Virus record (IMG/VR): IMGVR_UViG_3300048547_000037
Location: 1 to 22,532 of that record
Source: a virus
Strand: one strand, 5' to 3'
Length of the DNA stretch: 22,532 bases
The notes below the pieces were generated by a model that had not been told where the DNA came from, ran no database searches, and saw only the letters and a list, made by a program, of their open reading frames with translations. Positions 3 through 13,495 of the stretch are shown here, piece after piece (within the stretch, counting starts at the first letter, position 1; each line of letters starts with the position of its first letter). The translations under genes and the position numbers were made by a program.

Positions 3-872
3 GTCCCGACTTCAGTTTTTAGAATTCAAGGGATTTCCCTTGGCGCGGTTGGTTTGTATTCTTATTTGCTATCGCATGACAACGACAAGCCGGTGACAAT
101 TTCGTTTTGTGCAAATAATTTCAAGGAAGGCAAAGACGCTATTCGCGCCCGGCTGAAGGAACTTGAAACCTTTGGTTTGGTGCGCCTTGAAACTGTAAAA
201 AATGAAGGTGTTTTTCGTGGTTACAATTACCATTTGATTGACCCCACCGCGTCGGAAAATCCGACACCCCGCGTTGGATTACCCGCAACGGAAAATCCGA
301 CACAAAGAAAATATAATGACAATATAGATATCTATAATGATAATATAATATATAATAACAATAAAGAAAATAATATCATAATAGAAAATAATATTCCTCA
401 AAATCCAAAAACGAAAGATTTTCCGCCGCATATTGAAAAAGCGTTTCCGCATTTTGTTGCATTGTTTCCAAAACGAAATCAACCCAAAACCAAGGCGCAA
501 AAACAAAAATGGTTGGATTGCCTTGACAAAATCGAACGCATTGACAAATACAACCTTCGGGACGTTTATGCCGTTTGCAAGCAACTGCGTCAAGATGATT
601 TTTGGCAAAACGTGTTTTTAAGCATTTTAAAGCTGCGTAATAACGACAAAAACGGCGTGAAGTATGTTGACCGCTTTATGTCACAAAACGCCCTTAGAAC
701 GCGCCCAAATGCGTTTAAACGTGTTTCGGGACTTATTGACTTTGTAACGTATGAAGACAAAGGAAAAAAAATAGGGGCGAAAACATCAAATGGAAATTTG
801 TTTGATTACAACTTGAAACAACTACTTTCCGAAACTGAATACAATGAACTATTCAAATACCTTTACAAATGA
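3..872 (+). CDS. Replication initiator-like winged-helix protein, 5' end cut by window edge
   Basis: The frame is open to the left edge. Codons from position 3 continue a typical N-terminus (VPTSVFRIQGISLGAVGLYS), so the TTG at 54 is not the real start, which lies outside the window. The first ~80 visible residues resemble the winged-helix DNA-binding domain of phage and plasmid replication proteins (SFCANNFKEGKDAIRARLKE as helix-turn-helix, then a beta wing). A low-complexity Asn/Ile linker follows (about nt 305-395), then a helical C-terminal domain rich in Lys and Trp that may contact the helicase or primase. The order of DNA-binding domain, disordered linker encoded by AT-rich DNA, and C-terminal interaction domain recalls lambda O. 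It overlaps the next gene by ATGA (869-872) and lies upstream of the primase-helicase. Initiation is inferred from architecture and context; a DnaD-like loader or a transcription regulator is the alternative. Confidence 0.65.
   Translation, partial: VPTSVFRIQGISLGAVGLYSYLLSHDNDKPVTISFCANNFKEGKDAIRARLKELETFGLVRLETVKNEGVFRGYNYHLIDPTASENPTPRVGLPATENPTQRKYNDNIDIYNDNIIYNNNKENNIIIENNIPQNPKTKDFPPHIEKAFPHFVALFPKRNQPKTKAQKQKWLDCLDKIERIDKYNLRDVYAVCKQLRQDDFWQNVFLSILKLRNNDKNGVKYVDRFMSQNALRTRPNAFKRVSGLIDFVTYEDKGKKIGAKTSNGNLFDYNLKQLLSETEYNELFKYLYK
251..303. repeat. Two iteron-like direct repeats
   Basis: A 15-base word, CGGAAAATCCGACAC, occurs exactly at 253-267 and again at 289-303, start to start 36 bases. 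The first copy lies within a perfect inverted repeat, GTCGGA-AAA-TCCGAC (251-265). The spacer has a further inverted pair (CGTTG / CAACG). The repeats sit inside the initiator-like gene directly before an AT-rich tract, the layout of initiator-binding sites. They also encode a repeated peptide (ENPT), so protein-level repetition is an alternative reason. Confidence 0.6.
304..400. other. AT-rich tract, candidate origin unwinding element
   Basis: Roughly nine in ten bases are A or T over about 90 bases, with many ATAAT/TATA steps, in contrast to the 40%-GC-like flanks. It encodes the Asn/Ile-rich linker of the initiator-like protein and follows the two iteron-like repeats, as a DNA unwinding element would. 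Origin function is inferred. Confidence 0.5.
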
Positions 873-1598: not shown

Positions 1599-3281
1599 AT
1601 GATTGAAAAACTTGCAAACCTTGGAATAAATTTGAAGAATAGAACAAACGGGGAATTAAAAACAAAATGTCCGAAGTGTTCACACAACAGAAAAAATAAA
1701 CACGACGAATCCTTGTCGGTTAACATTTCAACCGGACTTTACAATTGCCACAATTGCGGTTGGGCGGGCGGTGTAATGTTTCAAAAAAAATCGGAATACA
1801 TAATTCCGGAAAAAGTAAACGCCGACGTTACCGAACGCGTATTAAAATGGTTTGACGGGCGCGGCATAACCGAACCAACACTTGTTCATTGGCGCATTGG
1901 TGAATCACTTGAATACATGCCGCAAGTGGGTTCAAAGCGTCGTTGTATAAATTTCAACTACTTCCGGGACAATAAGATTGTGAACGTCAAATTTCGTGAC
2001 GGCGAAAAAAACTTCAAAATGACGTCCGGTGCTGAACTTATTTTTTACGGCATTGATAATATAAAAGAATCAAAAACATGTTACATTGTCGAGGGTGAAA
2101 TGGACGCGCTTTCATTGCATGAAGCCGGATTGTATTCTGTTTGTTCAGTTCCAAACGGGGCGTCAAAAGGAAATGCGCGCCTTGATTATTTGGACAACTG
2201 TTTTGAATACTTTAAAAACAAAACCGAAATCGTTCTTTGCACCGATAACGACGACGCCGGGTTGCAATTACGAAATGAACTTGCAAGGCGGTTTGGACAA
2301 CACCGCTGCAAATATGTCGATTTTGGCGACTTTAAAGATGCCAACGAGGTATTGACTACAAAAGGCGCGGAAACGTTACGAAACGTCATCAAAAGCGCGA
2401 AAAACTTTCCATTGGAAGGCGTTTTGAATGTCAATGATATTTGGGAAAACGTTTTGGCGTATAATGAAAAAGGCGTTCAGAATTATTCAATTGGACTTGC
2501 GGAATCGGATTCGTTTTTCAAAATGTCATGGGGCGAATGGACGGTTGTCACCGGCGTTCCCAATTCGGGAAAGTCCGACATTGTTGACCAAATCTTTTGC
2601 AACGTTGCGACAAAATATGGATTCCGTTGCGCTATGTTTGCGCCGGAATCATTTCCATACGAGGGTCATATCAAAAGGATTGCAAACAAACTGAACAACA
2701 AACTTTGCAACAACGACGACCTTGAAAACACAAAGGATTTCATTGAAGAACATTTTCATTGGATTCGGATTGACCTTGAAAATTTGACACTAAAAAACAT
2801 ATTGAATAAGTTCCGGGAACTTGTCTTCCAAAAAGGAATCAACGTTTTTTGTATTGACCCGTTCAATATGCTTGACCATTCGGCGCAAAGGGATTTCAGC
2901 TATATTGGAAAAATACTTTCCGAAATCACACAATTCGTTCAACAAACAAACACCCATTTATTTTTGGTTGCGCACCCGCGAAAAATAGAATCGGAAAATG
3001 GGGTGTACAAAAAGCCGACGTTGTATGACGTTTCGGGTTCCGCTGACTTTTTCAATAAAGCGTACAATGGTTTAATTGTTTACCGTTGCATCGGACAAAA
3101 GACAAGGTACAAATCCGACCTTGTGAAAATATATATTGAAAAAGTAAAGCGCAAGGAAAACGGTCAAATTGGTGATTTTGACGTTGCACCTGACTTTGGT
3201 TCCGGTGGGGTTTACAAACCTATTGACAAAAATGACAAAGCGTTTGAAGTGATAAAGGACAACACGAACATTCCATTTTAA
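1599..3281 (+). CDS. Bifunctional DNA primase-helicase (T7 gp4-like)
   Basis: 560 residues, near the size of T7 gp4. In order: a zinc-binding domain with C24-x2-C27 and C50-x2-C53 (CPKC, CHNC); a TOPRIM primase fold with E165 (VEGEMDA) and D216-N-D218-D219 (CTDNDDAG); and a RecA-type DnaB-family helicase with Walker A G319-x4-GKS326 (GVPNSGKS) and Walker B ending at D420 (VFCIDPF), followed by HLFLVAHPRK, a likely motif H3 region. It would lay RNA primers and unwind DNA at the phage fork as a hexamer. It lies in the replication module behind the initiator-like gene. All catalytic signatures are intact. High confidence. Confidence 0.93.
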   Translation: MIEKLANLGINLKNRTNGELKTKCPKCSHNRKNKHDESLSVNISTGLYNCHNCGWAGGVMFQKKSEYIIPEKVNADVTERVLKWFDGRGITEPTLVHWRIGESLEYMPQVGSKRRCINFNYFRDNKIVNVKFRDGEKNFKMTSGAELIFYGIDNIKESKTCYIVEGEMDALSLHEAGLYSVCSVPNGASKGNARLDYLDNCFEYFKNKTEIVLCTDNDDAGLQLRNELARRFGQHRCKYVDFGDFKDANEVLTTKGAETLRNVIKSAKNFPLEGVLNVNDIWENVLAYNEKGVQNYSIGLAESDSFFKMSWGEWTVVTGVPNSGKSDIVDQIFCNVATKYGFRCAMFAPESFPYEGHIKRIANKLNNKLCNNDDLENTKDFIEEHFHWIRIDLENLTLKNILNKFRELVFQKGINVFCIDPFNMLDHSAQRDFSYIGKILSEITQFVQQTNTHLFLVAHPRKIESENGVYKKPTLYDVSGSADFFNKAYNGLIVYRCIGQKTRYKSDLVKIYIEKVKRKENGQIGDFDVAPDFGSGGVYKPIDKNDKAFEVIKDNTNIPF

Positions 3282-3293
3282 AAAAATTTAATT

Positions 3294-3947
3294 ATGACAA
3301 ATATAACAAACGAGGATTGCATGGAATTAATGTCGCGATTTGACGACAACCATTTTGAACTTGCTATCGTTGACCCGCCTTATGGTATAGGTTTTGGCGA
3401 GTTTAACAGAACAAATAAGGATTCAAATGGCAATAGATATAAAGCCAATAAATACAAACAAGGTAATTGGGATGATTCAATACCGACAGATGATTATTTT
3501 ATAGAGTTAAAAAGAGTAAGTAAAAACCAAATAGTTTGGGGTGGTAATTACTTCCCATTTCTTTGGAAAAAAGGATGTAAAGGGTTTATTTTTTGGTTTA
3601 AAGATAACCCTGTACCAAACTTTTCTGATGGCGAATTAGCTTACACAAGTTTTAATAAAGTGGCTAAACAATTTAATTATCGCTATTATGGAAATTTAGA
3701 AGGTAATACATCGGCAAAAGAAAAATATCACCCAACACAAAAACCCGTTTCACTTTATGAATGGCTTTTGATGAATTATGCAAAAGAAGGCGACAAAATC
3801 CTTGACACCCATTTGGGTTCCGGTTCAATTGCAATTGCATGTCACAACCTTGGATTTGATTTGACGGCGTGCGAAATTGACAAAGAGTATTTTGACGCCG
3901 CAATGAAACGACTTGAACAACACAAAGCACAACAAAGATTGTTTTAA
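3294..3947 (+). CDS. DNA methyltransferase, probably N6-adenine, beta-class order
   Basis: 217 residues. The catalytic motif D27PPY30 precedes the cofactor motif (LDTHLGSGS, 170-178), the order of beta-class amino-methyltransferases. A conserved HPTQKP (146-151) comes just before the cofactor domain. DPPY favours adenine N6 over cytosine N4 as target. It has no restriction partner nearby, so it is an orphan enzyme that may protect phage DNA or mark it. The middle third (about nt 3396-3714) is more AT-rich and uses AGA and TTA codons that are scarce in the flanks, suggesting that the segment was exchanged. It overlaps the next gene by one base (TAATG). Confidence 0.88.
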   Translation: MTNITNEDCMELMSRFDDNHFELAIVDPPYGIGFGEFNRTNKDSNGNRYKANKYKQGNWDDSIPTDDYFIELKRVSKNQIVWGGNYFPFLWKKGCKGFIFWFKDNPVPNFSDGELAYTSFNKVAKQFNYRYYGNLEGNTSAKEKYHPTQKPVSLYEWLLMNYAKEGDKILDTHLGSGSIAIACHNLGFDLTACEIDKEYFDAAMKRLEQHKAQQRLF

Positions 3948-4448: not shown

Positions 4449-4859
4449 ATGAGGTTTGAAAGTCAAAAAGACTTGGAACGCGAAACAAAAGCAATCAAAA
4501 CTTTTTGCGCCGCTTACAATCTAAACTTTGAAAAACAAAGTGATTGGGACGTTGACTTTGTTGTGTTCAATAGTGAATACAAAACGCATGTTGAAGTCAA
4601 AGGGCGGTTGCGATTGATTAAGGATTGTTTTCCTTTACCTTTAGCAATCCGAAAAATATATAAATTGAAAGAAGTCGCCGAAAATCCAATTGTCATTTGG
4701 GCGTGCTTTGACGGCATTGTTTATGCGAAACTGAATGACTTGATTGGTGAAATAAAAAAAGGCGGAAGGAAACCAAGACAAGGAAGTTCAAACGACATTG
4801 AAATCATGGCATACTATCCGAAACAAGAATCAATCAAGGTTTTAAAATATAATCCCTAA
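4449..4859 (+). CDS. PD-(D/E)XK nuclease-like protein
   Basis: 136 residues. An N-terminal helix with E10/E12 leads to D34-V-D36 (WDVDFVVF) and E49-V-K51 (HVEVKGR), which match the Asp and ExK positions of the PD-(D/E)XK core; later strands (NPIVIWACFDGIVYAKL) fit the rest of the sheet. A role in phage DNA recombination or repair, or cutting at packaging, is possible since it lies directly before the terminase genes. It shares only the core with the other two PD-(D/E)XK proteins in this window. Fold likely, role unknown. Confidence 0.6.
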   Translation: MRFESQKDLERETKAIKTFCAAYNLNFEKQSDWDVDFVVFNSEYKTHVEVKGRLRLIKDCFPLPLAIRKIYKLKEVAENPIVIWACFDGIVYAKLNDLIGEIKKGGRKPRQGSSNDIEIMAYYPKQESIKVLKYNP

Positions 4860-6430: not shown

Positions 6431-8674
6431 ATGGCTTCATTACTTCAACGCCTTAGCAATCTAATCACAAAAAACGCGCAACAAACCGCCGCGGCATATA
6501 ATAAGGCAATATATCAGTATTTGGGTGAATCAATCATTTGGAATCCTGAAAATGATGATTCGTACATTCAACAAGGATATCGAAAGAACGCAACAATATA
6601 TTCACTTGTCAATATCATTACAAAAGCGGCAACAACCATTCCGTTTCAAGTGTACGAAAAAACAAATGAAAACGACTTAAAAAGATACAAGGCATTGACA
6701 AGCGGGACAATTGATTCCGGCGCACTTTACAAAGCCGAAATACTAAGAAAGCAAGCGTTGAATGAATTGGAAGGAACGCCGCTTCATGAACTATTGGAAC
6801 GTCCAAATCCTTCGCAATCTTACAATTCATTTTTGACTGAACTTGTTGCGTTTGGGAAATTGACCGGCAACCGATACGTTTATGGGATTGCACCGGAAAC
6901 GGGAATGAATCAAGGGCGTTATTCTGAACTTTATGTCATGCCGTCGCAAGTCATGGAAATTGTTTCGGGCGGTTTTATGCAACCGGTCAAAGGATATCGA
7001 ATTGAATACAACGGGACGTTTGATTTGCCCGCCGACGACATTTGTCACATTAAGGATTTCAACCCTTATTACGACGGAACGGGTTCACATTTATACGGTC
7101 AATCCCCATTGCGTGCCGGACTTCGTTCGCTTACAACAAACAATGAAGCGGTCACAACGGGTGTGAAGTATTTACAAAACCAAACGGCGCGTGGTGTCTT
7201 AATGAGTGAAGAAGGCGACCTTAATGAAATGCAAGCGCAACAATTGAAAGACAAATTCCGCCAACAATTCCAAGGTTCTTCAAACGCCGGTGATGTTATT
7301 ATAACACCAAAAAAATTATCATGGGTGAACTTCGGATTGAACGCCGCGGACGTGTCACTTATTGAACAATACAACGCGTCAATCAAAGATTTGTGCAATG
7401 TTTACAACGTACCCGTTCAGTTATTGAACAACACCGAATCAAGCACATACAACAATATGCGTGAAGCGAAAAAGGCGTTGTATCAAAATTGCGTTATTCC
7501 TGAACTTATCAAAGTACGCGACGAATTGAACCGTTGGTTGGTTCCAAAGTTTGGTGACAATTTATTCCTTGATTTTGATTTCACTTCGATTCCTGAATTG
7601 CAAGAAGAAACGGAAAAAGTCGTTGGACAATTGACGCAAGCGTGGTGGTTGACACCAAACGAAAAACGAATTGCGATGTCTTACGGTCAAGACGAAGACA
7701 CCCCCGCACTTGACGACTACTATATACCGGCGAACCTTATTCCAACACAAAACGTTGGTGTTGAAATGCCCGACCCCGAACCAATTGAAGACCGGAAAGA
7801 AGACAAACCAATTGACGAAATGGTCAAGCTATTCAAGGCACTTGTCCCGGGAATGACCGACGTATTCACAACGGTTGACGAAGCCGAAGCGCGTGCGGTT
7901 GAACTTGGCGGAACGGGACACCATGAACATTCGTTTGACGGCGAAACAGTTTACATGCCTTTTGATTCGCATGAAGAATATGAAGCCGCGATTGAATCGC
8001 AAAAGAACTATCACGATGAAGAAGAAGAAAAAGAAATTTCGGAACGTTTGAAAGCCGCGCTTGAAAATAAGGTTGAAGAACACAACGACGAAGTTGACAA
8101 CGACCCTGACAAATCAACTGACGTTGACACGTTGTTTGAAGTTTATGAACGTGGTGTTGGCGCATATAGAACCAACCCGGAATCAGTTCGACCGAATGTT
8201 TCGTCGCCTGAACAATGGGCAATGGGACGCGTGAATTCTTATTTGTTTGCACTTAGAAACGGAAAGTTTCGTTCAGGAAAACACGACACCGATTTGTTAC
8301 CCGAGGGACACCCAATGAGTTCAAAAGAAGAAGAAGAAAAAAACGGTGACACGTTTGACAACTATCCACAAAGCGCAACCAACAACGCAAAACGAATGAT
8401 TGAATGGCGCGAAAAATACGGTGACGAAGTTACTGCGGGAACGATGACGGGTTGGCGAAGGGCGCGCATGATAGCCGACCGCGACCCTTTGAATGTTGAC
8501 ATGTTGCGAAGAATCAATTCATTTTTTGCACGTCATGAAGGCAACGAGAAAATCGCTGAACAATACAAAGAAACACCATGGAAAGACAACGGGTTCGTTT
8601 CATGGAATCTTTGGGGCGGAACGCAAATGCGTGATTGGGTGAAAGAAACATTGTCCAAATTAGAAAACGAATAA
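6431..8674 (+). CDS. Portal protein with long C-terminal multi-domain extension
   Basis: 747 residues. The first ~440 are an HK97-type portal: IIWNPENDDSYIQQGYRKNA at the start, GTPLHELLERPNPSQS, the clip/stem region, and NVPVQLLNNTESSTYNNM. Portals of this family are usually ~380-450 residues, so the last ~270 are extra. That part contains three segments: EARAVELGGTGHHEHSFDG (~485-503); VYERGVGAYRTNP...PEQWAMGRVNSYL with HDTDLLPEGHP (~567-627); and TGWRRARMIAD...RINSFFARHEG...WNLWGG (~672-733). I recognise these as phage-type accessory domains usually seen in separate or minor head proteins. The linkers are acidic and Glu-rich. The twelve-fold ring would carry these domains at the packaging vertex. 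Confidence 0.9.
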   Translation: MASLLQRLSNLITKNAQQTAAAYNKAIYQYLGESIIWNPENDDSYIQQGYRKNATIYSLVNIITKAATTIPFQVYEKTNENDLKRYKALTSGTIDSGALYKAEILRKQALNELEGTPLHELLERPNPSQSYNSFLTELVAFGKLTGNRYVYGIAPETGMNQGRYSELYVMPSQVMEIVSGGFMQPVKGYRIEYNGTFDLPADDICHIKDFNPYYDGTGSHLYGQSPLRAGLRSLTTNNEAVTTGVKYLQNQTARGVLMSEEGDLNEMQAQQLKDKFRQQFQGSSNAGDVIITPKKLSWVNFGLNAADVSLIEQYNASIKDLCNVYNVPVQLLNNTESSTYNNMREAKKALYQNCVIPELIKVRDELNRWLVPKFGDNLFLDFDFTSIPELQEETEKVVGQLTQAWWLTPNEKRIAMSYGQDEDTPALDDYYIPANLIPTQNVGVEMPDPEPIEDRKEDKPIDEMVKLFKALVPGMTDVFTTVDEAEARAVELGGTGHHEHSFDGETVYMPFDSHEEYEAAIESQKNYHDEEEEKEISERLKAALENKVEEHNDEVDNDPDKSTDVDTLFEVYERGVGAYRTNPESVRPNVSSPEQWAMGRVNSYLFALRNGKFRSGKHDTDLLPEGHPMSSKEEEEKNGDTFDNYPQSATNNAKRMIEWREKYGDEVTAGTMTGWRRARMIADRDPLNVDMLRRINSFFARHEGNEKIAEQYKETPWKDNGFVSWNLWGGTQMRDWVKETLSKLENE

Positions 8675-12460: not shown

Positions 12461-12488
12461 AAGGGGCGCATTTGTGTCCCTTTTTTTT
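12461..12488 (+). terminator. Intrinsic terminator after major capsid gene
   Basis: AAGGGGCGC (12461-12469), loop ATTT, GTGTCCCTT (12474-12482) form a nine-pair stem with two G-T wobbles, running into a tract of eight T. Confidence 0.8.
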
Positions 12489-12537
12489 GTGTCTTATATT
12501 CGTAGAAATAAAAAAAATTTGTTTTTTTTAAAATATA

Positions 12538-12570
12538 TTTGCAATTAATAGAATTATTTTATTATCTTTG
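12538..12570 (+). promoter_or_regulatory. Strong-looking promoter of the inserted cassette
   Basis: TTTG at 12538-12541, a 21-base spacer and TATCTTTG at 12563-12570 form the best complete -33/-7 match in the window. Both upstream flank and spacer are very AT-rich, which may serve as an UP-like element. The next ORF starts 20 bases downstream. Confidence 0.7.
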
Positions 12571-12590
12571 ACATATCAAAAAATGAAACA

Positions 12591-12770
12591 ATGAACAAAA
12601 ATTACAATTACAGAGTTTTAAATTCAGAAGGTTTAATCAAGTTTACAGGTACAAATTTAGGTAGTTGGTTCACACTTGAAAAAGCAAGAGAACTTCGCGA
12701 CAATGGTGATTTTGGTGACACCATATTTGAATATGACAACAACGGAAATCAACTTTGGGAAACATTCTAA
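12591..12770 (+). CDS. Small hypothetical protein, 59 aa
   Basis: The first ORF after the strongest promoter. It reads MNKNYNYRVLNSEGLIKFTG and goes on with LGSWFTLEKARELRDNGD and IFEYDNNGNQLWETF. The two beta-strand blocks with a helix between (strand-turn-strand, helix, strand) suggest a compact alpha-beta fold. Its codon use is a little richer in TTA and AGA than its neighbours, as for an added gene. Small proteins of this look are seen in Bacteroidota and their phages, but I cannot name a family or function. Confidence 0.6.
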   Translation: MNKNYNYRVLNSEGLIKFTGTNLGSWFTLEKARELRDNGDFGDTIFEYDNNGNQLWETF

Positions 12771-13120: not shown

Positions 13121-13495
13121 ATGAACACCAACCAAAAAGGTTGTTTCGCTGAATACAAATTTGCAACCGCCGCAATGGAATGCGGTTTGAATGTTTCAAT
13201 GCCTTTGCTTGATTCGTCAAGGTACGATTGTATTGTTGAACATCAAGGGCGGCTTTCAAAAGTCCAAATCAAAAACGCAAATGACCGAAATGAATCTGAA
13301 GAAAAAAAAGGTGTTCATGTCACTATGCTACAAAGCGGAAATTTTTACAATAAAGATTTAGTTGACGTTTTTGCAATCTATGTTTTTGACGGTTTCTTTA
13401 TTATTCCAAATGAAGAACAACGCGCCTTCAGGTTTACACCCGGCGGAAAGTATTCGAATTTTTTTAATAACTTTGCACCATTCTTCAATCAGTAG
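13121..13495 (+). CDS. PD-(D/E)XK endonuclease, homing-type (PDDEXK_5-like)
   Basis: 124 residues. KGCFAEYKFATAAMECG supplies the N-terminal helix with E11, then SRYDCIVEH with D36 and KVQIKNA with Q49-x-K51. The D...QxK form, with Gln replacing the usual Glu, is typical of the group-I-intron-associated PD-(D/E)XK endonucleases. These are often free-standing mobile genes in phage genomes. It is flanked by terminators on both sides and lies between the capsid and connector genes, where no phage function requires a nuclease, so a selfish element is likely. It is the only clear gene here ending in TAG. Upstream, GTAATTTAG is a weak match to a -7 box. Confidence 0.7.
   Translation: MNTNQKGCFAEYKFATAAMECGLNVSMPLLDSSRYDCIVEHQGRLSKVQIKNANDRNESEEKKGVHVTMLQSGNFYNKDLVDVFAIYVFDGFFIIPNEEQRAFRFTPGGKYSNFFNNFAPFFNQ

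Follow-up and report, generated by a model that had tools for sequence, protein, structure and literature searches.

Organization of the replication region

The sequence analysed, IMGVR_UViG_3300048547_000037, is a full IMG/VR record of 22,532 bases, hereafter the window, and all coordinates are window positions (Table 1). IMG/VR classes the record as 'linear', and because no end repeats were found it is probably a fragment. Its first ORF, an initiator-like gene, is truncated 5' by the contig edge, its relatives being ~28 residues longer N-terminally. The product matched PHROG families phrog_2514 ('DnaD-like helicase loader', E 1.5e-13), phrog_270 (4.5e-13) and phrog_186 (5.5e-13). The term 'DnaD-like' is a PHROG label only, as no Pfam match to DnaB_2 (DnaD C-terminal) was obtained at E <= 1; at the same threshold there was no match to Pfam RepA_N (PF06970). 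Pfam HTH_36 (PF13730) scored 16.6 bits against a gathering threshold of 25, which is below the cut-off, and a relation to this family is plausible.

An AlphaFold2 (AF2) model of the product, built on a 23-sequence alignment, showed an N-terminal winged-helix (wHTH) domain, a linker predicted to be disordered and a C-terminal part that is helical and modelled with low to moderate confidence, in agreement with the initial annotation, which had placed the elements described below inside the gene of a winged-helix protein and over a disordered linker. Foldseek searches with the wHTH domain returned wHTH folds of a generic MarR/ArsR-like kind (E 6e-3 at best), and kinship with RepA_N or DnaD by fold was unsupported because only such generic matches were obtained. 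The C-terminal part carries a motif resembling the C-terminus of lambda O; in hhalign the family aligned with lambda O 213-263 over 51 columns at 29% identity (E 7e-4, probability 27%), a weak direct match. The O-like family phrog_391 was matched at 6-8e-7 by the homologues L061/L033 and more weakly (0.005) by the window protein, and phrog_2514 is common to lambda O (3e-37) and the window protein (1.5e-13).

The ORF that follows (869-1252) matched phrog_13596 (unknown), and the primase-helicase encoded further downstream is the likely partner for helicase delivery. No P-like helicase loader was found adjoining the initiator-like gene in this fragment record, and a loader may lie elsewhere in the genome. 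In the remainder of the fragment, the portal protein (6431-8674) is extended at its C-terminus by ~300 residues, with DUF5824 matched below threshold at 565-619, an arrangement suggestive of a second domain fused to the portal. Two small PD-(D/E)XK nucleases are also encoded, at 4449-4859 (PDDEXK_14) and at 13121-13495 (PDDEXK_5), the second in the structural-gene region.

Table 1. Features of the candidate origin and of the genes involved (window positions).
Feature	Position	Strand	Remarks
Initiator-like gene	3..872	+	wHTH, disordered linker and O-like C-terminal motif
Winged-helix DNA-binding domain	3..242	+	Residues 1-80, AF2 pLDDT about 70-87
Recognition helix KEGKDAIRARLKE	about 126-164	+	Within the wHTH domain
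Predicted disordered linker	249..413	+	Residues 83-137, AF2 pLDDT below 50
Iteron 1, GTCGG-AAAAT-CCGAC	251..265		Perfect inverted repeat, 5-nt arms, 5-nt A-tract
Degenerate inverted copy TTGGATTACCCGCAA (reverse complement TTGCGGGTAATCCAA)	274..288		Between iterons 1 and 2
Iteron 2, ACGGAAAATCCGACAC	288..303		Palindromic core CGG-AAAAT-CCG at 289-299
A/T-rich tract, candidate unwinding element	303..392		88% A+T
TATAATGAYAATATA copies at 312-326 and 333-347, partial copy TATAATAACAATA at 351-363	312..363		18-nt period
O-like C-terminal motif W..xIDKIERID...QDDFW...FLS..KLR	489..641	+	hhalign to lambda O 213-263
Primase-helicase, Toprim and DnaB-like	1599..3281	+	phrog_239, E 3e-90

Iterons and A/T-rich tract within the linker

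The initial annotation had reported two exact 15-base repeats 36 bases apart, one of them inside a perfect inverted repeat, leading into ~90 bases of about 90% A/T, and each of these elements was recovered. The identical 15-mers CGGAAAATCCGACAC occupy 253-267 and 289-303 (36 nt start to start), the first overlapping the perfect palindrome of iteron 1, and the tract that follows is 88% A/T; to this list we add the third, degenerate copy between the two. The linker (residues 83-137, nt 249-413) coincides exactly with the repeats plus the A/T tract. A+T content over the longer stretch 303-413 is 84%, and the most A/T-rich 90-mer in the whole window begins at 306 (88.9%). A near-equal A/T stretch (~87%) lies at about 12481-12610, just 3' of the putative capsid gene. 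The A/T tract consists of an 18-nt unit, CTATAATGACAATATAAA, repeated in tandem in variable number (312-363 in the window, 3312-3381 in relative L003); the tract encodes NYNDNI units and contains several TATAAT boxes.

The linker peptide is itself of low complexity and repetitive (SENPT, Asn/Ile-rich), and the DNA repeats could in principle have come about by chance or codon use as a by-product of coding. No mononucleotide shuffle of the ORF contained a direct repeat of at least 15 nt (0/500). When the linker stretch was recoded with the peptide preserved and the phage's own codon usage applied, such a repeat appeared in 53 of 5000 draws (~1%), which leaves some room for a coding by-product, as does the fact that the peptide is also repeated. 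Two CGGAAAATCCG sites arose under peptide-preserving recoding with P = 0.0014, and the observed A/T content (88%) equalled the maximum of 2000 synonymous recodings, whose mean was 78%. Single-gene chance tests alone are modest evidence, and the comparative evidence is far stronger.

Conservation in close relatives

The element was kept in all 11 of 11 IMG/VR relatives compared (73-89% identity by best tblastn segment), with TCGGAAAATCCGAC of iteron 1 identical throughout. L008-L010 carry CGGTAAATCCA at the position of the degenerate inverted copy (window 274-288). In iteron 2 of L007-L010 the centre is altered (CGG-GAAAT-CCG, a change of E to G) and the arms CGG...CCG are retained; such a nonsynonymous change that leaves the palindromic arms intact argues against a by-product of coding. 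Across codons 84-100, 10 of the 11 residue-invariant codons were also codon-identical, as against 55% elsewhere in the gene, which is only modest evidence for constraint on the DNA because the relatives are close. The copy number of CTATAATGACAATATAAA ranges from 1 to 4 among the relatives, and the length of the A/T tract varies with it. The iteron cluster was confined to the linker site in contigs of up to 93 kb, with single near-matches at most elsewhere. GC skew, which had been proposed as a check, showed no turn at the repeats in the relatives' 29-93 kb contigs and followed gene strand and transcription; it neither helps nor refutes an origin at this position.

DNA rather than peptide is kept

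A more distant comparison was provided by L033/L061, whose protein is 42% identical to the window protein and has the same C-terminal motif. These genes match CGGAAAATCCG exactly at three sites; two are read in another frame, giving GKSEV-GKSEV, and the last yields ENP, whereas the window reads the same site as SENPT...TENPT. The conservation of the repeats, a check suggested in the initial annotation, was thus positive in the 11 relatives and independent of frame in homologues.

IMG/VR was then scanned for two CGGAAAATCCG within 5-35 nt. The scan yielded 54 paired stretches, 41 of which share an ORF with a recognisable wHTH and lie 3' of it. The 26 non-redundant wHTH genes with this site (CGG arms) include 10 in which it is read in two or three frames, and in L015, L016, L197 and L222 all three frames are used inside a single gene; in L015 and L016 the peptides GKSD, SENPT and RKIR all derive from one site type within the gene. 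Since the site is read in all three frames across phage genes, it is the DNA, not the encoded peptide, that is kept. The frames are non-random (n = 79: f1 (ENP) 55, f2 18, f0 4, reversed 2), so the peptide does matter a little and some preference exists. That ENP is the commonest frame speaks for a coding by-product, yet the same DNA occurs in different frames both across homologues and within single genes, and the strong form of the coding explanation is refuted by the three-frame genes. We regard an origin of these repeats in codon use or chance as very improbable.

The motif CGCAAAATGCG was tried as a composition control and rejected in that role, as it proved to be itself an iteron of the same grammar located mostly in wHTH genes: 25 of its 43 stretches lie in such genes, and it is read in multiple frames in 11 of 19 non-redundant genes (CGC arms), giving the peptides QNA, AKC and RKM. 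It represents a second, equally widespread iteron type (L197, L222, L185, L187, L208, L219 and others), and other types are defined by the arms GTGG, ATGG and GTAC. With the non-palindromic control CGGAAAATGGC, 2 stretches were obtained in all, counted irrespective of wHTH. The 90 nt that follow the iterons are A/T-richer than the gene in both the CGG set (P 1e-5) and the CGC set (P 3e-4).

In bacterial genomes the bare CGGAAAATCCG pair was rejected as a diagnostic, wHTH genes holding 6 of 118 clusters there; the pairs are mostly ENP, SGKSG or RKIRK repeat proteins, or intergenic repeats. Prevotella-type genomes (loci such as L072, L076, L079, L087, L120, L134 and L139) carry short tandem CGGAAAATCCGG-like repeats (SGKSG/RKIRK/ENPEN) upstream of which a wHTH was not recognised. 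On a Methanosarcinaceae contig, six CGGAAAATCCG sites occur outside any ORF (L069 4016-4176), possibly a non-coding iteron array. Literature searches for a CGGAAAATCCG-type motif gave matches to unrelated subjects only.

Iteron arms follow the recognition helix

An unbiased set of 55 non-redundant proteins was collected by HTH sequence alone, and their 240-nt linkers were examined for inverted repeats with GC-containing 4-nt arms and a 5-nt spacer, with dinucleotide shuffles supplying the expectation. The linkers contained 75 such repeats compared with 15.9 expected, an approximately fivefold excess, while neither the HTH region (19 vs 18.8) nor the C-terminal part (14 vs 13.9) was enriched; this restriction to linkers also speaks against a coding by-product. 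Spacers of 2-4 nt were likewise enriched in linkers, and the excess at 2 nt probably reflects arms of adjacent tandem copies. Repeat centres were mostly AAAAA, AAAAT or AAAAC, and arms included ACGG, GTGG, ATGG and GTAC.

Among 54 non-redundant proteins, identity in the recognition helix predicted a shared arm when the rest of the domain was taken into account (partial Mantel r 0.26, P 0.0005), whereas the rest of the wHTH added nothing once the helix was given (partial Mantel -0.05, P 0.86). Nearest neighbours shared an arm in 45 of 54 cases when chosen by helix and in 36 of 54 when chosen by the rest of the wHTH. For example, [ST][VI]xR helices pair with CGC arms, and most proteins with CGG arms have G[RK]D[AS]. 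The recognition-helix columns that ranked highest were 48, 42, 46 and 45 of the HMM. The associations of arm and helix suggest that each protein recognises the sites within its own gene; the case is strong but not final, because the pooled sets were partly arm-selected and kinship was corrected via identity over the remainder of the domain and not by a tree.

The same association bears on whether the sites act as DNA or as RNA. Iteron 1, with its perfect 5-bp arms and 5-nt loop, could fold into an mRNA hairpin controlling translation or transcription. Many sites, however, have arms of just 3-4 bp, both orientations occur (L042, L101, L201 and L223), and the arms track a recognition helix that belongs to a DNA-binding domain; we consider a hairpin very improbable.

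A predicted origin inside the initiator gene

Taken as a whole, nt ~249-413 very probably constitute the replication origin of the phage, embedded in its own initiator gene, and the window origin is a well-supported prediction of a lambda-O-type intragenic origin. The lambda O/ori arrangement put forward in the initial annotation is upheld at the level of sequence by the repeats kept as DNA, the A/T tract and the O-like motif. Counting against this reading are the small number of intact iterons (two), the lack of a P-like loader beside the gene, the non-random frames, the skew that does not turn at the repeats and the weak direct match to lambda O. In the proposed mechanism, the wHTH domain would bind each palindromic site, probably as a dimer, and the two good sites and the degenerate one would nucleate a small nucleoprotein complex, which would melt the adjacent 88% A/T tract. 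The O-like C-terminal region would then recruit the DnaB-like primase-helicase (1599-3281), either directly or via a host loader. The site may have been placed in the disordered linker because the peptide there is nearly unconstrained.

Repression of their own genes is common among wHTH proteins, and the repeats could be sites of the encoded wHTH and yet serve as an operator for autoregulation or as a brake on copy number, with replication beginning elsewhere. The association of arm and helix is compatible with this, as it indicates likely binding and not the effect of binding. The sites nevertheless lie 250 nt inside the gene rather than at a promoter, an A/T tract follows them in gene after gene, and both geometry and place match the proven lambda origin. 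We therefore consider a purely regulatory role improbable, and an origin remains our preferred reading.

The prediction gives a testable origin position for an uncultured virus, and origins placed within a gene, as in lambda, look common and not peculiar to that phage. What is added beyond the known lambda type is an iteron grammar, shared by many phages, that is coded in the arms and independent of frame; because the DNA is read in all frames, genome sequence is enough to recognise the site. The link of iteron arm to recognition helix could be used to predict origins and initiator specificity in metagenomic phages, and would explain the odd ENP, GKS, RKIR, QNA and AKC repeats in annotated phage replication proteins. 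We give about even chances to the broader proposition that self-contained modules of initiator and embedded iterons are found in phages of many bacterial phyla and follow a single rule, namely palindromic arms flanking a 5-nt A-tract, located in linker codons of any frame, with the arms set by the helix of the same protein. If that rule is true, origin and specificity would be predictable from one gene, and a joint swap of helix and arm should retarget the origin.

Comparison with known replication systems

In lambdoid phages, iterons and an A/T tract in the middle of O form the origin, and in lambda the two AT-proximal iterons together with the AT region are enough for unwinding (PMC7466680). 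In a Stx-phage origin plasmid, iteron mutations that preserve the O peptide abolish replication (PMC7466680). Lambda O/ori-lambda and its Stx-phage relatives carry the origin midway along the initiator gene, as is predicted for the window. The annotated lambda iterons inside O (ATCCCTCAAAACGAGGGA and three variants, of the build CCCTC-AAAAC-GAGGG) share with those of the window the order of arm, 5-nt A-tract and arm, and in both cases the iterons lie inside the initiator gene, an A/T-rich tract stands directly 3' of them, and the protein combines an HTH N-terminus with the O-like C-terminal motif. Lambda differs in having four iterons, as opposed to two intact copies and one degenerate inverted copy in the window. 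The window, from an environmental phage, differs in turn in its arm sequence, its wHTH subtype and its possession of a phage primase-helicase of its own with no P-like loader seen adjoining.

Initiators of the RepA_N type (pSK41, pTZ2162 and PLE RepA) use iterons built as inverted repeats that converge on a poly-A tract and are bound by the N-terminal wHTH (PMC7145576), an iteron design also found in the window. The window protein, unlike these, has no Pfam RepA_N match and a different C-terminal motif, RepA was absent among the 50 best Foldseek matches listed, and the PLE iterons lie outside the repA gene (NCR3). For a mycobacteriophage repA gene it has been suggested that the origin may lie within it (PMC7157519).

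Phage replication proteins of the DnaD-like/HTH_36 kind (PHROG 2514, 270, 186 and 428) share profile families with the window protein, and two cultured phages carry related genes. Cellulophaga phage phi18:3 gp006 resembles it in the C-terminal motif and has 11-nt repeats of its own after the N-terminal domain, but its N-terminus and repeat type are unrelated. Arthrobacter phage Kitkat gp42 has the GRDAV helix, ENP repeats and O-like motif in common with the window protein, while the repeats of gene 42 are imperfect (CCTGAAAATCCG) and nowhere in that gene is the A/T content strongly raised (maximum 53%).
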